In this document: positions 11,113-61,274 of the stretch, in pieces
How positions within the stretch are numbered: position 1 is the first letter of the stretch
Layout: each line of letters starts with the position of its first letter
Assembly (NCBI RefSeq): GCF_900172345.1
Contig: NZ_FWFY01000002.1
Span: 248,001-312,000, forward strand
DNA length: 64,000 nucleotides
Direction: 5' to 3'
From: Limimaricola soesokkakensis
GTDB taxonomy: Bacteria; Pseudomonadota; Alphaproteobacteria; Rhodobacterales; Rhodobacteraceae
The notes under the pieces: model-generated
What the model saw: only the letters and a program-made list of their open reading frames with translations
The model's database searches: none
What the model was told of the DNA's origin: nothing
Made by a program: the position numbers and the translations under genes

Positions 11113-12480
11113 CTATTCCTCGAGCGCGCGGCGCAGCAGTTCGAGGTCATCAGCGATCTGGCTGTCGGTGGCCTTCAGCTCTTCGATCTTGCGCACCCCG
11201 TGCATCACCGTGGTGTGGTCGCGCCCGCCAAAGCGGCGGCCGATCTCGGGCAGCGAACGCGAGGTCAGCTTCTTCGACAGGTACATCGCCACCTGCCGCG
11301 GCCGGGCATAGCTGCGCAGCCGCTTCGGGCCGATCATGTCCGACAGGCGGATGTTGTAATGCTCCGACACCCGGCGCTGGATCTCCTCGACCGTGATCTT
11401 GCGATCGCTGGCGCGCAGGATGTCGGCGAGGCAGTCCTGCGTCATCTCGAGCGAGATTTCGCGGCCCACCAGCGAGGCAAAGGCAAAGAGCCGTGTCAGG
11501 GCCCCCTCGAGCACCCGCACGTTGTTAGAGATGCGATGCGCCAGGAACTCGTAGACGCCGGGCTGCACTACGATGCCGGGATACTGCGCGCGGTAATAAT
11601 CGGCCTTGGCCTGCAGGATGCCGACGCGCAGCTCGAAATCGGTGGGGAACAGGTCCACGACGAGGCCGGAACCCATGCGCGAGGTGATCCGCTCCTCGAC
11701 GTCCTTCATGGCGCCCGGCGCGCGATCGGCCGAGATAATGATCCGTTTGCCGGCGTCGATCAGCGCGTTGAAGGTGTGAAAGAACTCCTCCTGCGTCGAA
11801 TCCTTGCCGCCGAGGAACTGGATGTCGTCGACCATGAGCACGTCGACCGAGCGGAACAGCTGCTTGAAATCCATCATGCGCTTGTCGCGCAGCGCGGTGA
11901 TGAAGCGGTACATGAACTGCTCGGCGGAGGTGAGCACGACCTTCAGATGCGGCTGGCTGGCGCGCAGCTCGTGGCCGATCGCGTGCATCAGGTGCGTCTT
12001 GCCCAGGCCCACCCCGCCATAGAGGAACAGCGGGTTGAAGCCCAGGCTGCCGCCCTCGGCGATGCGGCGCGCGGCGGCATGGGCCATCTCGTTGGGCTTG
12101 CCGACGACGAAGCGGTCGAAGGTGAAGCGGGGGTCGAGCGTGGCCGAGGGGGTGGCATCGTCATCCTCGAGCGCGAGATGGGCGGAGGCCGCGTCGGTTT
12201 TCGGCTGGGGCGCCGCGGGGCGGGGCGCGGCGGCGGCGCTGGCGGACTGGGCGAAGATCAGGCGCTGCACGGCGAAGCCGGCGCGGGCCAGCTGCGTCAG
12301 GATCTGGTCGCCGAAATTCTGCAGCACGTAGTTGCCGTGGAAGGTGGTGGGCACGTGGAACCGGGCGACGCCGTCGACCAGCGCCTCGAAGCGCAGCGGC
12401 GCGATCCAGGTGGTGTGGTTGTTGGCGCCCACCGCCTGCTTGAGCTCTTCGCTGACCTGCGCCCAGATTTCGTTCGTCAT
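11113..12480 (-). CDS. dnaA: Chromosomal replication initiator protein DnaA
   Basis: A 455-residue AAA+ initiator. Domain I begins [14 protein letters not shown]; a variable Ala-rich linker follows near residues 85-115; the AAA+ domain has Walker [11 protein letters not shown] and Walker [13 protein letters not shown]. Domain IV carries the DNA-binding signature [15 protein letters not shown], which contacts TTATCCACA boxes. The start is set at the conserved MTNEIW; a longer frame would add 22 low-complexity residues. It heads the leftward dnaA-dnaN-recF block, but candidate DnaA boxes are about 30 kb away at 42.1-42.4 kb rather than next to this gene. The upstream region is rich in GANTC sites, suggesting methylation control as known for Caulobacter dnaA. 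Confidence 0.98.
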
Positions 12481-13127
12481 GACCTGTCCCCGACCTGCCT
12501 TCATCGTCACCCGGGCGCGCCCGCCGCGCCCGGCCTTGCCATCCACATCCGGGCACAGGCAGTGCGGTCGCCGGCGCGCATGCGCCGACGCTGTTCCGCA
12601 CCGGACTGACCTAACCTCCGGACCCGAACGGGAGCGGCCAAGGCCGCCGACCCGCTATCGCAGTTCGGCCCGGGATCGGGACATGACGGCATGTGACGCC
12701 CGCCGGATGGCGGTCGCAATGCAGACAAGCGCGGGACGGCCAATGGCACGGCCGAGGCCGTGCACCCGTCACGCTCCAGAGAGCAGGCACCCCGTTCGCG
12801 GTCCCGATCTGATCGGCCGTGCAGCTGGCCTTCGGACCACCGTGGTGCCGACTCGTCCATGTTCCCCCAGGAACGATGTGAATCGCATGGGCAAGTTAGC
12901 CGCTGGCTTTGGAGGTCATCAACCGAACAACGCGCTTGACGACGGACTCCGCTGAATCGAATCCGCGCCGATTTCACCGGTCCCCTGAATCCTAAGGGCC
13001 GCGCGCAAGAGCCGTGCGAGGCCGCCACAGCACGTTCCGGACGGCCCCGATATCCTAAGGGATCAACTTGACAGCGAGGTGACGCCAAACCCCGCGATTC
13101 TTTCGCAACGGCAGCAAATCGACAATG
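12481..13127. other. Non-coding region upstream of dnaA with clustered GANTC sites
   Basis: No convincing gene is seen in these ~650 bases. Seven GANTC sites (CcrM-type methylation targets) lie at 12850, 12880, 12945, 12954, 12959, 12987 and 13096, six of them within 142 bases. The 10-mer ATCCTAAGGG occurs twice, at 12989-12998 and 13052-13061. No TTATCCACA-like DnaA box was found. The dnaA promoter presumably lies here; the rpsT terminator closes the right side. Confidence 0.7.
12893..12922 (-). promoter_or_regulatory. Possible dnaA promoter
   Basis: On the minus strand TTGATG is followed after 18 bases by TAACTT, a loose match to sigma-70 -35/-10 elements, about 410 bases before the dnaA start. 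GANTC sites at 12880 and 12945 flank it. The match is weak and the distance long, so this is only a candidate. Confidence 0.25.
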
Positions 13128-35595: not shown

Positions 35596-36378
35596 TCATC
35601 CCTCCCGTTCAATGACTTCTGCGGCCAGATCCAGATAGGCCTTGGTGCCCGCGCAGGCGGGATCGTAATCGAGAACCGGCATGGCATGGGACGGCGCTTC
35701 GCTCAACCGCACATTGCGCGGGATCACCGTCTTGAACACAAGATCGCCCAAGGTGCCCCGCGCGTCGGCTTCGACCTGTTGGGACAGGTTATTGCGGCGA
35801 TCATACATGGTCAGGACGATACCCTCGATCCGCAGGGCTTCGTTGGCGGTGCTGCGCACTTCGCGCAATGTCAGCATGAGCTGCGAAAGGCCTTCGAGCG
35901 CGAAGAACTCGCTCTGCAAGGGCACGATCATCGAGCCAGCGGCCACCATCGCGTTGATCGTGAGAAGGTTCAGCGCCGGTGGGCAATCGATCAGAATGTA
36001 ATCATAATCGCCCCGGTCGGCGATAAGCTCGGCCAAGCGGCGCTGCAGCATGCGACTGCGGCCACCCGAGGCCATCAGCTCGACATCGGCGGAGCTCAGA
36101 TCGGTCGTCGCCGGGATGATATCCAGCCCATAAACCTGCGTCCCATGTATCCCTTCCGATGCGGGATCCTGACCCAGAAGCAGGTCATAGGTAGTGGATC
36201 GACGATCGCCGGCGGCGAGGCCGAGACCCGTCGAGGCGTTGCCCTGGGGGTCCATGTCGATCAGCAGGACCCGGCGCCCGGCCTTGGCAAGGGCCGCTCC
36301 GAGGTTGATCGCCGTGGTGGTTTTCCCGACCCCGCCCTTTTGGTTGGCAAGGGCGATGATACGACAGGTCTCAGGCAT
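35596..36378 (-). CDS. parA: Chromosome-partitioning ATPase ParA
   Basis: A 260-residue deviant Walker ATPase of chromosome segregation. ALANQKGGVGKTTTAINLGA is the deviant Walker A with both lysines, LLIDMDPQGNASTGLG is the A' motif, and YILIDCPPALNLLTINAMV the Walker B. Its dimers bind DNA non-specifically and pull ParB-parS complexes to the new pole. The start overlaps the rsmG stop by 8 bases; the mnmE-mnmG-rsmG-parA-parB operon is typical for alphaproteobacteria. Confidence 0.97.
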   Translation of the reverse strand: MPETCRIIALANQKGGVGKTTTAINLGAALAKAGRRVLLIDMDPQGNASTGLGLAAGDRRSTTYDLLLGQDPASEGIHGTQVYGLDIIPATTDLSSADVELMASGGRSRMLQRRLAELIADRGDYDYILIDCPPALNLLTINAMVAAGSMIVPLQSEFFALEGLSQLMLTLREVRSTANEALRIEGIVLTMYDRRNNLSQQVEADARGTLGDLVFKTVIPRNVRLSEAPSHAMPVLDYDPACAGTKAYLDLAAEVIEREG

Positions 36379-36988
36379 GGGTCAGGTTGCTCACGAGCAG
36401 GATACGGGCTGCGGGGTCGGTAACACTCTGTCGGGTATCGATGTCGAAATGCCAAGTCCTACGAGCTTCGTCGATCTCGGCTTCGTAGCTCTGTCCCTTC
36501 AGGAACACGCATCGTCCGCCCGGCGCAAGATGCAGATGCGCGTAGGACAGAAGATCTGTTAGGGGAGCCAAGGCACGCGCACTGATTGTTTTCGCCTCCA
36601 AAGGAGCGAGCTGCTCGACCCGCGTGCAGTGGACGGTCAGGGAAAGACCTAGTTCCCTCCCCGCAGTCCGCAGAAATGCTGCTTTCCGTTGGTCGCTTTC
36701 GACCAAATGCAGGTCGAGACCGGTCTCCTGCTCGGCAGCCATTATGGCGACCACGATTCCAGGAAATCCGCCACCCGATCCCAAATCTGCCCAAGGGCCG
36801 CGCGTACTCGGTATGAACTCTGCGAGTTGTAGGGAGTCGGCGATATGCCGAGTTTCCACCTGTTCGAGGTCGGATTTGGAGACCAGATTGATCGCCGGCG
36901 ACCATTTGCGGACGAGTGCCGCGTAAGCGATCAGACGCTCTCGTGTTTCACGTGAAACACCCAAATCCTGAAGAACGCTTTCGCTCAT
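36371..36988 (-). CDS. rsmG: 16S rRNA (guanine-527-N7) methyltransferase
   Basis: A 205-residue SAM methyltransferase (GidB). The SAM loop is [17 protein letters not shown], the family start region [20 protein letters not shown] and the catalytic-site stretch [20 protein letters not shown] are present. A perfect parS palindrome lies within its 5' coding region at 36944-36959, encoding GVSRE near the start. Its ATG overlaps the mnmG stop by 4 bases. Confidence 0.96.
36944..36959. promoter_or_regulatory. parS site 2, inside rsmG
   Basis: TGTTTCACGTGAAACA, identical to the universal parS consensus and a perfect palindrome. It is coding sequence of rsmG near residues 10-15. It lies 5.3 kb from the putative oriC and 0.6 kb from the start of parA. 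Confidence 0.95.
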
Positions 36989-38841
36989 GCGGCCGCTCTG
37001 CGGCTGGCGTTGATCAGCAAGAGCATCCCGGCCGCAGTCATTCCTTCGATCTTGCCCGCTTCGCCTACCGACCGGGGCCGCGCCACCTCGAGTTTCTGCC
37101 GCAACTCGTTCGAGAGACCAGGCAAGCTCGCATAATCGAGATCGATTGGAAGACGACGTGCTTCATCGCGCCGGATGGATTCAGCGTCGCGATCCTGCCT
37201 CTGCGCGTAAGCACTGTAGATTGCATCATTCTTCAGCTGAACCGCAGTCTCAGTGTCGATTTCAGCGAGTTCAGGTTCGATAGCGCACAGCATTTCGAAA
37301 TCGACATCGGCGATGCTTAGGGCTTCGATACCGTCCTTCCTCGGGCGATCCGGGTTGAGATTTGCCCCTTGCGAGGCAAGATCCCGCGGCGCAAAACTCA
37401 TTTCCGCGAGTCTCAAACGCGCGATTTCGAGCCGGTTCATCTTGGCCGAGAACTGCTCCCAGCGCGCCTCGCCAACGCAACCCGAAGCGTGCCCCATAGG
37501 CGTCAGCCGCTGATCAGCATTGTCCGCGCGAAGCGACAGCCGGAACTCTGCCCGTGAAGTGAACATGCGATAGGGCTCGGTAACGCCCCGCGTAACGAGA
37601 TCGTCGATCATTACGCCGATATAGCTGGACGTCCGGCTGAACTCTGGCGGGGTACGATCCAAGGCCTCAGAAGCTGCTGCCAGACCAGCAGCGCAGCCTT
37701 GGGCGGCTGCTTCCTCATAGCCCGTCGTACCGTTGATCTGCCCCGCAAGGTACAGGCCCGGGACGTCCTTCAGCTCCAGCCCGCGCGTGAGCGCTCTCGG
37801 ATCGATGTAGTCATACTCGATGGCGTAACCGGGCTGCTCAATACGGACGTTCTCAAGCCCTACCATCGCGCGGATGAAGTTTTCCTGGACATCAAGCGGT
37901 AGCGAGGTCGAGATGCCATTTGGATAGACCGTATCGGTGTTCAGCCCTTCGGGTTCGAGGAAAACCTGATGGCTCTCTTTCTCGGCAAATCGAACGACCT
38001 TGTCTTCGATTGAAGGACAATAGCGCGGACCGGTGCCGCTGATATTGCCGCTATGCATTGCCGATTTCGAAAGATTTGCGCGGATCACCTCATGTGCAGC
38101 CGGGTTGGTGTGGGTGATGCCGCAGGAAATCTGCCTTGCTTCGGGACGCTTGTTCAGGAAGGACAGCATCACCGGATCATCGTCACCCGGCTGCATTTCC
38201 AAGCGCGCCCAGTCGATCGTCTTTCCGTCCAACCGCGCTGGTGTGCCGGTCTTGAGTCGGCCCATCTGCAATCCGAAGCTGTCGATGCGTTCCGCGAGAC
38301 GGGTCGAGGCTTCGTCCCCTACCCGACCCCCCGGCCGCGTCTCCGCGCCGAAATGCAGAACGCCGCGCAGGAAGGTTCCGGTGGTGAGAATGACGCTCCG
38401 AGCGTCGAGACGCGTGCGATCGGCCAGATCGACGCCGCAGATCCGACCGCCGCGCTCGACCAGATCGTAGACCTCTCCTTCAACGAGTTCGAGATCCGCG
38501 ATTGCGCGCAACTCCTCCTGCATGCGGCTGCGATAGATTTCTCGGTCTGCCTGCAATCTCGGGCCTTGGACGGCGGGGCCCTTGCGCCGGTTCAAAAGGC
38601 GGAACTGGATGCCCGAAGCATCCGCCACTCGCCCCATCAGACCGTCGAGAGCATCCACTTCTCGAACGAGATGCCCCTTGCCCAAGCCACCGATGGCGGG
38701 ATTGCAGGACATTGCGCCGATCGTGGCAATCTTCATCGTCACCAGCGCCGTCTTCGCACCCATGCGGCTTGCAATGGCTGCAGCTTCGACGCCGGCATGA
38801 CCGCCACCGACCACCACGATGTCGTAGGATTTCTGTTTCAC
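36985..38841 (-). CDS. mnmG: tRNA uridine 5-carboxymethylaminomethyl modification enzyme MnmG (GidA)
   Basis: A FAD-dependent partner of MnmE that modifies wobble uridine-34. [20 protein letters not shown] is the FAD-binding Rossmann motif; [20 protein letters not shown] and the C-terminal GATase-like helical domain are typical. I choose GTG at 38841, giving 618 residues from [10 protein letters not shown], because AGGAG (38851-38855) is 9 bases upstream; the longer frame begins with TTG at 38850 and reads FHVKQ, with the ribosome site abutting it. Either way a parS palindrome overlaps the initiation region. The stop overlaps rsmG by 4 bases. Confidence 0.95.
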
Positions 38842-38849
38842 GTGAAACA
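38834..38849. promoter_or_regulatory. parS site 1, at the mnmG start
   Basis: TGTTTCACGTGAAACA, identical to the parS consensus. Its CACGTG core holds the likely GTG start of mnmG, so the ParB-binding site and the translation start occupy the same bases. 3.4 kb from the putative oriC. Confidence 0.95.
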
Positions 38850-41569: not shown

Positions 41570-42019
41570 TCAGAACGGGCGCACCACCACCGCCACCACG
41601 ATCACCAGCAGGAGCAACGTCGGCACCTCGTTGGCGATGCGGTATTGCCTGCCGCTTCGGCTGTTGGTGCCAGCGGCGAACTCCTTGCGCCGCTTCGACA
41701 GCCAGCCATGCATCCCGGTCATCGCCAGCACCGCGGCCGCCTTGATCCAGGGCCACGGCTCGGACCAGTCGACGACGCCGAAGGAGATCAGCAGCAGCCC
41801 GAAGAGCCAGGTCGAAATCATCGCTGGCCCCATGATCAGCTTCAGCAGCTTCATCTCCATGATCTGGAAGGTCTCGTCGAGCTGCGAGCCGCTCTCTGCC
41901 CGCTCCGCGTGGTACACGAAGAGCCGGGGCAGGTAGAACATGCCCGCCATCCACGCCACGAAGGACAGGATGTGTCCCGTCTTTATCCACGGATAGGCGT
42001 AGGCGGCGAAGTCGGTCAT
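41570..42019 (-). CDS. hemJ: Protoporphyrinogen IX oxidase, HemJ type
   Basis: A 149-residue membrane protein with four hydrophobic helices and conserved His ([34 protein letters not shown]). HemJ oxidises protoporphyrinogen IX to protoporphyrin IX in heme synthesis. The start at 42019 has GAGGGACC upstream. It is the gene immediately left of the putative oriC and points away from it. Length is at the typical short end for HemJ. Confidence 0.9.
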
Positions 42020-42094
42020 CTCGGTCCCTCTCTCAGACCAACTCCTTCTCAAATGAATAAGGATAAAAGAAAAGATGAAGAGGGTAGTAGGGCC

Positions 42095-42102
42095 GTGGAT
42101 AA
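42095..42102 (+). promoter_or_regulatory. DnaA box 1 of putative oriC
   Basis: GTGGATAA; the 9-mer CGTGGATAA differs by one base from the consensus TGTGGATAA. A purine-rich AT tract lies directly upstream (42049-42085). Confidence 0.65.
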
Positions 42103-42125
42103 GCGGCCGTTGACGGCATATCCTC

Positions 42126-42143
42126 AGAGTCGTCCACAGGCTG
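42126..42143 (+). repeat. 18-bp direct repeat, left copy
   Basis: AGAGTCGTCCACAGGCTG, identical to the copy at 42417-42434. Each contains one GANTC and a weak DnaA-like box TCGTCCACA (7 of 9 bases). Confidence 0.9.
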
Positions 42144-42189
42144 GGCTTGCAGTCGAGGCCATTGGAACGACTCGGCTACATCGGTCAAC

Positions 42190-42230
42190 GTACTGAAAGT
42201 AAATGATTTAAATTTTCAGCTTGCCATATG
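42190..42230 (+). other. Candidate duplex-unwinding AT-rich tract
   Basis: The most AT-rich short segment in the gap, about 30% GC against the GC-rich neighbours; CTGAAA at 42193-42198 and TTTCAG at 42214-42219 form an inverted repeat around GATTTAAA. No GANTC lies inside it, but sites flank it at 42169 and 42239. Confidence 0.5.
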
Positions 42231-42305
42231 TCACGCCCGAGTCGCGATCTTGACTCCGCCATTTGCCCACAACGATCCCCAATGCCGGGCTTATGCTCGT
42301 CCCCC

Positions 42306-42313
42306 GTGGATAA
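42306..42313 (+). promoter_or_regulatory. DnaA box 2 of putative oriC
   Basis: GTGGATAA within CGTGGATAAGTCG, which also occurs exactly at 41530-41542. Surrounded by GANTC sites at 42320, 42333 and 42352. Confidence 0.65.
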
Positions 42314-42416
42314 GTCGCTGAGTCGCGGAGACGACTCACCCCGCTTGTCCCGAGTCGCGGGAGGGGTCACAACCTTCCACCGAGTCGTGCTCATGATTCG
42401 ATCCCGATTCCTCCCT

Positions 42417-42434
42417 AGAGTCGTCCACAGGCTG
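42417..42434 (+). repeat. 18-bp direct repeat, right copy
   Basis: AGAGTCGTCCACAGGCTG, 291 bases from the left copy and ending two bases before the maf start codon. It may serve both origin binding and the upstream region of maf. Confidence 0.9.
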
Positions 42435-42436
42435 CC

Positions 42437-43036
42437 ATGATCCAGACCCTCATCCTCGCCTCCGGATCCGAGATCCGTGCCAGCCTCCTCAAAGGGGCCG
42501 CGATCCCGTTCGAGATCGAGAAGCCGCGTATCGACGAGGCGGCGTTGAAGGCCGCGCTACTGGCCGAAGGCGCGCCGCCGCGCGATCTTGCCGACAAGCT
42601 GGCCGAGATGAAGGCGCTGAAGGTCTCGAATCGCAATCCCGGCGCCCTGGTTCTGGGCTGCGATCAGGTGTTGGCGCTCGGCGGCGAGATCTTTTCCAAG
42701 CCCGAAAGCCGCGAAGAGGCGCTCGACCAGCTCACTCGGCTTTCGGGCCGCACCCACCAGCTACTTTCGGCGGCGGTGATCTGCCGCGACGGTGAGCCGA
42801 TCTGGCGCCATGTCGGCGTGGTCCGGCTCGACATGGCGAAATGCTCCGAGACGTATCTGCGCGATTACGTCGACCGCAACTGGGAATCGATCCGCCACTC
42901 GGTAGGCGGCTACAAGCTCGAGGAAGAGGGCGTGCGCCTTTTCGTGCGAGTGATGGGCGATTATTTCACGGTGCTCGGCCTGCCGTTGGTGGAGCTGATC
43001 AACTGGCTGGTGCTGAGGGGAGATCTGCAACGATGA
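42437..43036 (+). CDS. maf: Maf family nucleotide pyrophosphatase
   Basis: A 199-residue protein with ILASGSEIRASLLKGAAIPF at its start and the catalytic stretch VLGCDQVLALGGEIFSKPES. The family hydrolyses non-canonical or dTTP/UTP nucleotides and affects septation. Its start sits two bases after the 18-bp repeat, so the 5' leader is the origin itself. The stop overlaps the aroE start by 4 bases, forming a maf-aroE-coaE-dnaQ operon reading away from the origin. Confidence 0.93.
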   Translation: MIQTLILASGSEIRASLLKGAAIPFEIEKPRIDEAALKAALLAEGAPPRDLADKLAEMKALKVSNRNPGALVLGCDQVLALGGEIFSKPESREEALDQLTRLSGRTHQLLSAAVICRDGEPIWRHVGVVRLDMAKCSETYLRDYVDRNWESIRHSVGGYKLEEEGVRLFVRVMGDYFTVLGLPLVELINWLVLRGDLQR

Positions 43037-60583: not shown

Positions 60584-61274
60584 GTGTACCTTGCAGCATC
60601 TCTTCGGCCAGGGGGATGCAGTCGGGGCGGCCGACATCGCACCAGCGCCCGTCATGCACCACGCCAAAGAGCCTGCCCCGCGCCGCGATCTCGTTCCACA
60701 GAAGGTTCAGCGAGAAAGCGTCTTCGGGTATCGCGTCGAGCCCGTCCGGCACGATGATCTGCGCGCCCGAATAGACATGGCCCGGCCCGCGCGACAGCCG
60801 CCCCTCGGCATCGACGAGGAAATCGCCCTGCCCCGTATGGCCCAGCGCGTTCTCGCGCGGGAGCAGCAGCAACAGCGCCTCCATGCGCGACGGGTCCCAT
60901 GCGCGTTTGAGCGCGGTGAGCGGGTTCGGCCCGGACCAGATCGCGTCGGAATTGAGCGTGTACACCGGCCCCGGCCCGAGCAGCGGCCGCGCCTTTCTCA
61001 GGCCGCCCCCGGTCTCCAGCAGCTTGTCGGTCTCGTCCGACAGGATCACGTCGCGGCCCTGAAGATGCTCGCGCAGCACCTCGCCCCGGTGATGCAGGTT
61101 GACGACGCGCCTGAGCGGCATCAGCGGTACGGTCAAATCGAGCGCGTGGTCGATCAGCGGCCGCCCCCCGACCTCGACCATCGGCTTGGGCCGGTGGGCC
61201 GTGAGCGGCCCCATGCGGCGGCCGAGCCCGGCAGCAAAGATCATGATGGCGCTGGGCGTCCCTTGGGTCGTCAT
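60573..61274 (-). CDS. Nucleotidyltransferase, N-acetylmuramate-1-phosphate uridylyltransferase-like (MurU)
   Basis: A 233-residue sugar-phosphate nucleotidyltransferase: SAIMIFAAGLGRRMGPLTAH is the nucleotide-binding loop and HRPKPMVEVGGRPLIDHAL the signature. MurU makes UDP-MurNAc directly from MurNAc-1-phosphate in cell-wall recycling. The identity is supported by the adjacent AmgK-like kinase (overlap 4 bases), which supplies this substrate. ATG 61274 was chosen because it overlaps that stop. Confidence 0.85.
   Translation of the reverse strand: MTTQGTPSAIMIFAAGLGRRMGPLTAHRPKPMVEVGGRPLIDHALDLTVPLMPLRRVVNLHHRGEVLREHLQGRDVILSDETDKLLETGGGLRKARPLLGPGPVYTLNSDAIWSGPNPLTALKRAWDPSRMEALLLLLPRENALGHTGQGDFLVDAEGRLSRGPGHVYSGAQIIVPDGLDAIPEDAFSLNLLWNEIAARGRLFGVVHDGRWCDVGRPDCIPLAEEMLQGTHAV

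Follow-up and report, generated by a model that had tools for sequence, protein, structure and literature searches.

The gap between the divergently transcribed genes hemJ and maf of Limimaricola soesokkakensis, which is very probably the chromosomal replication origin oriC, carries eleven GANTC sites, and the same gap contains 11–14 of them in each of the eight Limimaricola species compared. On the evidence of sequence conservation, it is best read as an array of CcrM sites kept by selection.

The putative oriC occupies positions 42020..42436 of the window, i.e., of the whole 64-kb stretch of DNA that was analysed. Its left neighbour is hemJ (protoporphyrinogen oxidase, UPF0093; 41570..42019, minus strand; TIGR00701 over cut-off), with the start taken as the ATG at 42019, and its right neighbour encodes a Maf-like nucleotide pyrophosphatase (42437..43036, plus strand; PF02545 over cut-off). 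The HemJ protein is 98% identical to that of Limimaricola sp. G21655-S1, and five further Limimaricola records come next among the matches listed. The gene order is parA, rsmG, mnmG, mnmE, rho, hemJ / maf, aroE, coaE, dnaQ, where parA, rho, hemJ and maf were confirmed by profile search of the translations, while rsmG, mnmG, mnmE, aroE, coaE and dnaQ are the presumed names of open reading frames (ORFs) recognised from their translations. The parA gene lies at 35596..36378 on the minus strand (ORF and profile match), and two perfect copies of the palindrome TGTTTCACGTGAAACA, which we take to be the parS motif, were found by motif matching at 36944..36959 and 38834..38849, 3–5 kb to the left of the gap. 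Both parS copies stand at or near the starts of the rsmG- and mnmG-like ORFs, apparently inside coding sequence, the mnmG-like ORF with parS at its start reading MFHVK. No repABC genes were found beside the gap, whose neighbours are hemJ/rho and maf, plus the ORFs read as aroE, coaE and dnaQ. In other genera of the family, hemJ and maf are likewise adjacent in 71 of 88 loci, with a gap of 318–396 bp as measured from the start of the HemJ query. Such a conserved neighbourhood, to which nearby parA and parS belong, is that of a hemJ-maf type oriC, and nearness to parAB is named as one criterion for the oriC of Rhodobacteraceae in the available text of PMC6699656.

An unwinding-element-like block at 42052..42103, next to hemJ, consists of a purine/AT-rich tract and a trio-like repeat, GATGA..GTAGTAGGG, followed by a DnaA box, GTGGATAA. 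This layout recurs in an alignment of 23 origins, in which a purine/AT-rich tract by hemJ leads to a GATGATG..GTAG run, presumably comparable to what is called a DnaA-trio, and then to a GTGGATAA-like box; among 72 gaps, 60 contain the motif GATG[AT][ATG] within their first 90 bases, and 68 contain the core GTGGA/TCCAC within their first 110. DnaA-box-like sites TTATCCACG with one mismatch stand in the gap at 42094..42102 and 42305..42313, both on the minus strand, and a third at 41983 inside hemJ. The DnaA boxes and the AT-rich unwinding element by which an oriC is recognised are thus present, with the boxes in the window being one-mismatch TTATCCACG and weaker forms only and the perfect box TTATCCACA being absent from the whole 64 kb. 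Accordingly, of the DnaA boxes and AT-rich tract announced in the preliminary description, the tract stands as described and the boxes stand in these imperfect forms.

The GC skew inside the window is noisy, with the minimum at 61087, and could not serve to prove the oriC. For G010, a complete relative, the cumulative GC skew was followed over 369 kb and reaches its minimum 1954 bp before maf, and the same hemJ-maf gap is accompanied there by two perfect parS to the left at a similar distance; this minimum is shallow (−1964, with another low of −1806 situated 14.6 kb rightward). The skew switch that had been proposed as a check is not seen in the noisy profile of the window and is seen, in shallow form, beside the same gap in the relative. 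The octamer GGGNAGGG, which we assume to be KOPS-like, is polarised about the gap, with 4 copies on the plus and 40 on the minus strand to the left and 22 and 12, respectively, to the right (p 4e-7), and its polarity switches between 49569 and 54288, 7–12 kb right of the gap; this displaced switch and the noisy skew count against an origin in the gap. Within the window, all 16 copies left of the switch are on the minus strand, and three of the four that follow are on the plus strand. Taken together, the diverging gene strands (hemJ on the minus and maf on the plus strand, as had been described), parA, the two parS, the unwinding-like block and the skew minimum in the relative make the proposed identity of the gap as oriC very probable.

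The array comprises two sites that lead into degenerate DnaA boxes, seven that match the motif YGAKTCG and two others. GANTC 1 (42127..42131) and GANTC 11 (42418..42422), both on the plus strand and both with the hexamer GAGTCG, lead into the degenerate boxes TCGTCCACA at 42130 and 42421, respectively, and in the alignment of 23 origins these boxes align with GAGTTATCCACAG-like boxes of other genera. The sequence CGAGTCG, which matches YGAKTCG, is found at GANTC 2 (42169..42173, minus strand), 3 (42239..42243, plus), 7 (42352..42356, plus) and 8 (42382..42386, plus), TGAGTCG at GANTC 5 (42320..42324, plus) and 6 (42333..42337, minus), and TGATTCG at GANTC 9 (42395..42399, plus). GANTC 4 (42252..42256, minus strand) reads GACTC, and GANTC 10 (42406..42410, plus) reads CGATTCC. 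Sites 3 and 4, 5 and 6, and 8 and 9 form pairs, as first and second members, at a distance of 13 bp. All eleven positions listed beforehand between 42127 and 42422 proved exact, and the recount likewise returned eight of the eleven as GAGTCG or its complement, with GAGTCG at six sites and CGACTC at two.

The G+C content of the gap is 55% vs 67% in the window. In the whole window, GANTC is depleted, with 81 sites observed vs 328 in dinucleotide shuffles. At the rate of the rest of the window, the 416-bp gap is expected to hold 0.46 GANTC vs the 11 observed (Poisson p about 3e-12), and dinucleotide shuffling of the gap itself (2000 rounds) gives an expectation of 2.96 and a maximum of 9, with no round reaching 11. 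The chance figure of about one, as proposed earlier, is fair in view of these two expectations. A genome sample composed of the window and 20 further stretches (464 kb of the 3.94-Mb genome) gave an average of 0.37 GANTC per 300 bp, so the density of the gap is far above that of the sampled genome, and outside the gap the highest counts per roughly 300 bp in this sample are 7 (upstream of dnaA), 4 and 4. The hexamer GAGTCG occurs in 58 copies in 400 kb of the stretches, i.e., 0.04 per 300 bp vs 8 in the gap.

Within Limimaricola, nine of the eleven array positions are common to all eight species and two to seven. In seven species, all 44 core letters of the GANTC sites, the variable base N at 11 of 11 and the next base at 11 of 11 sites are invariant vs 102 of 215 spacer columns, which upholds the claim that the repeat unit is longer than GANTC. 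With inclusion of the most divergent species (G005), the invariant fractions become 39/44 for the core, 10/11 for N, 8/11 for the next base and 82/215 for the spacers. In that species, GANTC 7 is lost and a new GAATC stands 4 alignment columns on, and another site is shifted by one base, GANTC being found 1–4 columns away both times. Since N, the next base and the GANTC core are all kept, the constraint acts on the methylation site and also on a longer motif. In each of the eight species, the array is about fourfold denser than its own local shuffle expectation, and none of 300 shuffles per species reaches the observed number. Where species of the genus have additional GANTC sites, or new ones in place of those lost, these differ in their letters from the shared ones. 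The species-specific extra sites were considered as proof of ongoing selection and set aside, their number being, by a rough estimate, roughly what base composition gives.

The origins of other genera were taken from the best-scoring 88 of 197 other genera in the family, of which 71 were usable; 17 of 96 loci were dropped for the lack of a HemJ match beside Maf or for a gap of more than 1200 bp. The 71 origins carry 1.8 GANTC on average, with zero in 21 of them and a total of 127 vs 112.4 by shuffle, and the flanks of 30 of these origins are depleted in GANTC (132 vs 476 expected). Of the 74 loci in named records outside Limimaricola, 20 had both genes and a usable gap, with 0–7 GANTC. Dense arrays were found in two further lineages. 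All four species of the genus g35 are dense (8, 11, 11 and 11 sites), and of the 11 sites that they share, 4 vary in N with GANTC itself kept. In g35 (L330–L333), some GANTC sites stand directly beside the DnaA-box-like sequences ttatccacaGAGTC and GAATCtgtggat. Of the 15 genomes of the genus g42, one had no Maf match and another (L348) no HemJ match, and both were left out; two of the 13 usable species carry 8–9 GANTC and the other 11 carry 0–2. The gaps of the dense pair, L338 and L343, are 93% identical, and the pair has probably gained its GANTC sites recently. Four species of the genus g197 have 3–7 sites. The dense arrays of other lineages are unlike that of Limimaricola in positions and letters, and, as judged from the gap sequences, there may have been at least two gains apart from that of Limimaricola. 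As for GANTC being a systematic extension of the DnaA box, 14 of the 127 sites in the 71 other-genus origins are within 3 bp of a TCCACR core vs 17.1 at random, and 4 of 25 vs 5.2 in two Limimaricola origins; the idea fits two sites only and was rejected as a general rule.

A second GANTC cluster is located upstream of dnaA (11113..12546, minus strand; TIGR00362 over cut-off), at 12850..13100, between dnaA and an ORF read as rpsT, with 6 sites in 12850–12991 and 7 when 13096 is included, which makes it, after the gap, the densest interval of that size in the 464-kb genome sample. The cluster is largely in register across Limimaricola. The regions upstream of dnaA in other genera were taken from 68 of the 197, best-scoring first, with one (L288) dropped for the lack of a DnaA match; the remaining 67 hold 304 GANTC in 37 kb vs 148 by shuffle, with 2–10 each. 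The numbers upstream of dnaA and at oriC are uncorrelated (Spearman −0.08, n = 48). The assumption that the oriC array and the dnaA cluster were gained together was rejected, the latter being family-wide and its size showing no correlation with the oriC count. The pattern suggests that dnaA is generally controlled by CcrM in Rhodobacteraceae.

Among the candidate factors, the presumed CcrM link is borne out insofar as a CcrM orthologue is encoded: the profile search of G000, the one genome searched for it, returned a protein of 369 aa with the N6_N4_Mtase and RAMA domains over cut-off, which matches NF050803 with E 1e-190 and 633 bits, below the model's own cut-off of 830 bits. Its gene is situated about 149 kb from the hemJ-maf gap and adjoins an ORF that reads as rnhB. 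GcrA is encoded in all eight Limimaricola genomes (split across two contigs in G002 and G004), and SeqA, searched with the PF03925 profile, was found in none of the eight, the E. coli positive control being matched. The motif that we take to be the CtrA box, TTAA-N7-TTAA, was sought as TTAA-N6..8-TTAA and was not found in the 64-kb window. The sequence YGAKTCG is matched by 7 of the 11 array sites, whereas in the genome sample 107 of 565 GANTC match it (p = 0.0016). It is rare in other dense arrays (1 of 11 sites in L204, 3 of 8 in L165) and upstream of dnaA (one of the 6–9 sites per Limimaricola species, 19 of 304 in the 67 other genera), and, therefore, a GcrA-type motif does not explain those. 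According to the available text of PMC7987155, YGAKTCG is the extended methylated motif of the Caulobacter promoters activated by GcrA, which works there with sigma70, and the extended motif was not seen in Brevundimonas. GANTC methylation enhances GcrA binding, as stated in the accessible part of PMC3667746.

On these grounds, a model can be proposed, to which we give even chances, in which the activity of the origin is tuned by CcrM methylation that is read by GcrA or DnaA. The hemJ-maf gap would serve as the DnaA-dependent chromosome origin of Limimaricola, and after the passage of the fork the eleven oriC sites, like the cluster upstream of dnaA, would stay hemimethylated for as long as CcrM has not acted. 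The reader of this state at oriC would most likely be GcrA, whose responsive motif YGAKTCG, as defined in Caulobacter, is matched by 7 of the 11 sites, or else DnaA itself at the boxes at 42130 and 42421, which share bases with GANTC, and the permission to re-initiate would thereby be tied to completed re-methylation. GcrA would be the most economical reader in Limimaricola, with DnaA as the alternative; independent gain, methylation in vivo, binding by the reader and an effect on initiation are the parts of the model that we infer. The excerpted text of PMC3973325 cites additional chromosome copies in Caulobacter cells that overexpress CcrM, and it describes replication control as normal in minimal medium in Caulobacter without CcrM. 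The latter is the strongest counter-evidence to a methylation-tuned origin. Against the reading of methylation there is also the fact that most of the sampled genera have no array, with zero sites in 21 of 71 and a total (127) near that given by composition (112). The same holds for the distance of GANTC from DnaA-box cores, which is no smaller than random, for the rarity of YGAKTCG in the other dense arrays and upstream of dnaA, for the origin of that motif in Caulobacter promoters and its absence in Brevundimonas, and for the lack of correlation between the dnaA cluster and the oriC count.

The main rival, which we regard as possible though unlikely, is that GAGTCG is bound by an initiation protein blind to methylation, either DnaA at degenerate boxes of low affinity or an orisome factor peculiar to the lineage, and that the CcrM site within the hexamer is incidental. 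Such a protein would account for the invariance of N and of the next base (11 of 11 each in seven species), which methylation alone would not need, for the alignment of two GAGTCGTCCACAGG copies with the GAGTTATCCACAG-type DnaA boxes of other genera, and for the three pairs spaced by 13 bp, but it agrees poorly with the differences in N and flanks among the arrays of other lineages, with the other letters of the extra and replacement sites in Limimaricola, and with a distance between GANTC and DnaA cores that is no smaller than random. It is less probable still that the array represents GcrA/CcrM-regulated promoters of maf and/or hemJ with no role in replication. The last three sites end 14–37 bp before the maf start, and the action of GcrA and sigma70 at methylated YGAKTCG promoters (PMC7987155, available part) as well as the methylation-enhanced binding (PMC3667746, likewise) lend this reading some force; however, eleven sites over 296 bp would seem to exceed the needs of a promoter, no sigma70-like promoter was found in 41950–42500 (a weak negative), and neither hemJ, a gene of haem synthesis, nor maf is obviously a cell-cycle gene.

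The least probable explanation is relaxed avoidance, in which coding sequence shuns GANTC but the gap, being richer in A+T, tolerates it as neutral, and drift and shared ancestry account for the array. The 71 other-genus origins, with 127 sites vs 112 by composition, and the depleted flanks of 30 of them (132 vs 476) behave as it predicts; yet the roughly fourfold excess over the local shuffle expectation in eight of eight Limimaricola species, unreached in 300 shuffles, and the invariance of all core letters in seven species while the spacers diverge speak against it, and on such sequence comparisons this explanation appears already disfavoured.

If the methylation-tuned origin is real, the array may help to set when the copying of the chromosome restarts, and convergent methylation-site arrays would exist at the origins of the alpha and gamma classes of proteobacteria. 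Whether CcrM controls initiation at DnaA origins is answered in the negative for Caulobacter in the available text of PMC3973325; for other Alphaproteobacteria, relatives with and without arrays at the same origin offer a comparative test, with Limimaricola, g35 and the g42 pair on one side and near relatives with 0–2 sites on the other. It is a tentative and rather doubtful extension that several alphaproteobacterial lineages independently rebuilt a methylation clock like that of E. coli at oriC and dnaA, CcrM standing in for Dam, and GcrA or some other reader of methylated GANTC for SeqA; GcrA of Limimaricola would in that case act at the replication origin besides its action in transcription. 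In the limited open-access literature, we found no report of GANTC arrays at Rhodobacterales chromosome origins, nor of a DnaA chromosome origin whose GANTC/YGAKTCG array is dense and fixed throughout a genus, or of such arrays in several lineages. Already in print, as far as the accessible portions of the sources extend, are GANTC sites at Caulobacter origins and GANTC-rich repABC origins (PMC3973325, PMC11514494, PMC6090056).

In the repABC origins of chromids and plasmids, GANTC is likewise above expectation at a replication origin (PMC11514494 and PMC6090056, available text), and a SeqA-like role of hemimethylation was proposed for ori2 of Agrobacterium (PMC11514494, same portion), whereas the array of Limimaricola lies in the hemJ-maf gap, at a chromosome origin of the DnaA type and not at a repC origin. 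The Cori of Caulobacter crescentus is similar in being an alphaproteobacterial DnaA-type origin with 'several' GANTC, but the array of Limimaricola is genus-fixed at 11–14 sites, with no CtrA box in the 64-kb window, and CcrM is not needed for initiation control in Caulobacter (for both Caulobacter points, PMC3973325 as excerpted). The GcrA/CcrM promoters of Caulobacter share with the array the motif YGAKTCG (PMC7987155, in part), which fits 7 of 11 Limimaricola sites, and GcrA is encoded in Limimaricola; in contrast, the Caulobacter sites are promoters, and the description in the available part of that source does not include GcrA at the chromosome origin. The Dam/SeqA system of E. coli differs in that Limimaricola has CcrM and GANTC for Dam and GATC and that SeqA was found in none of the eight genomes. 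The arrangement of the sites is alike in that those of an orphan adenine methylase are densely arrayed at oriC, with 11 GATC in 232 bp of the E. coli oriC and 11 GANTC in 296 bp in Limimaricola, and a second cluster of methylation sites is also present upstream of dnaA in Limimaricola, the dnaA promoter of E. coli being likewise bound by SeqA when hemimethylated (PMC10073500, available text).
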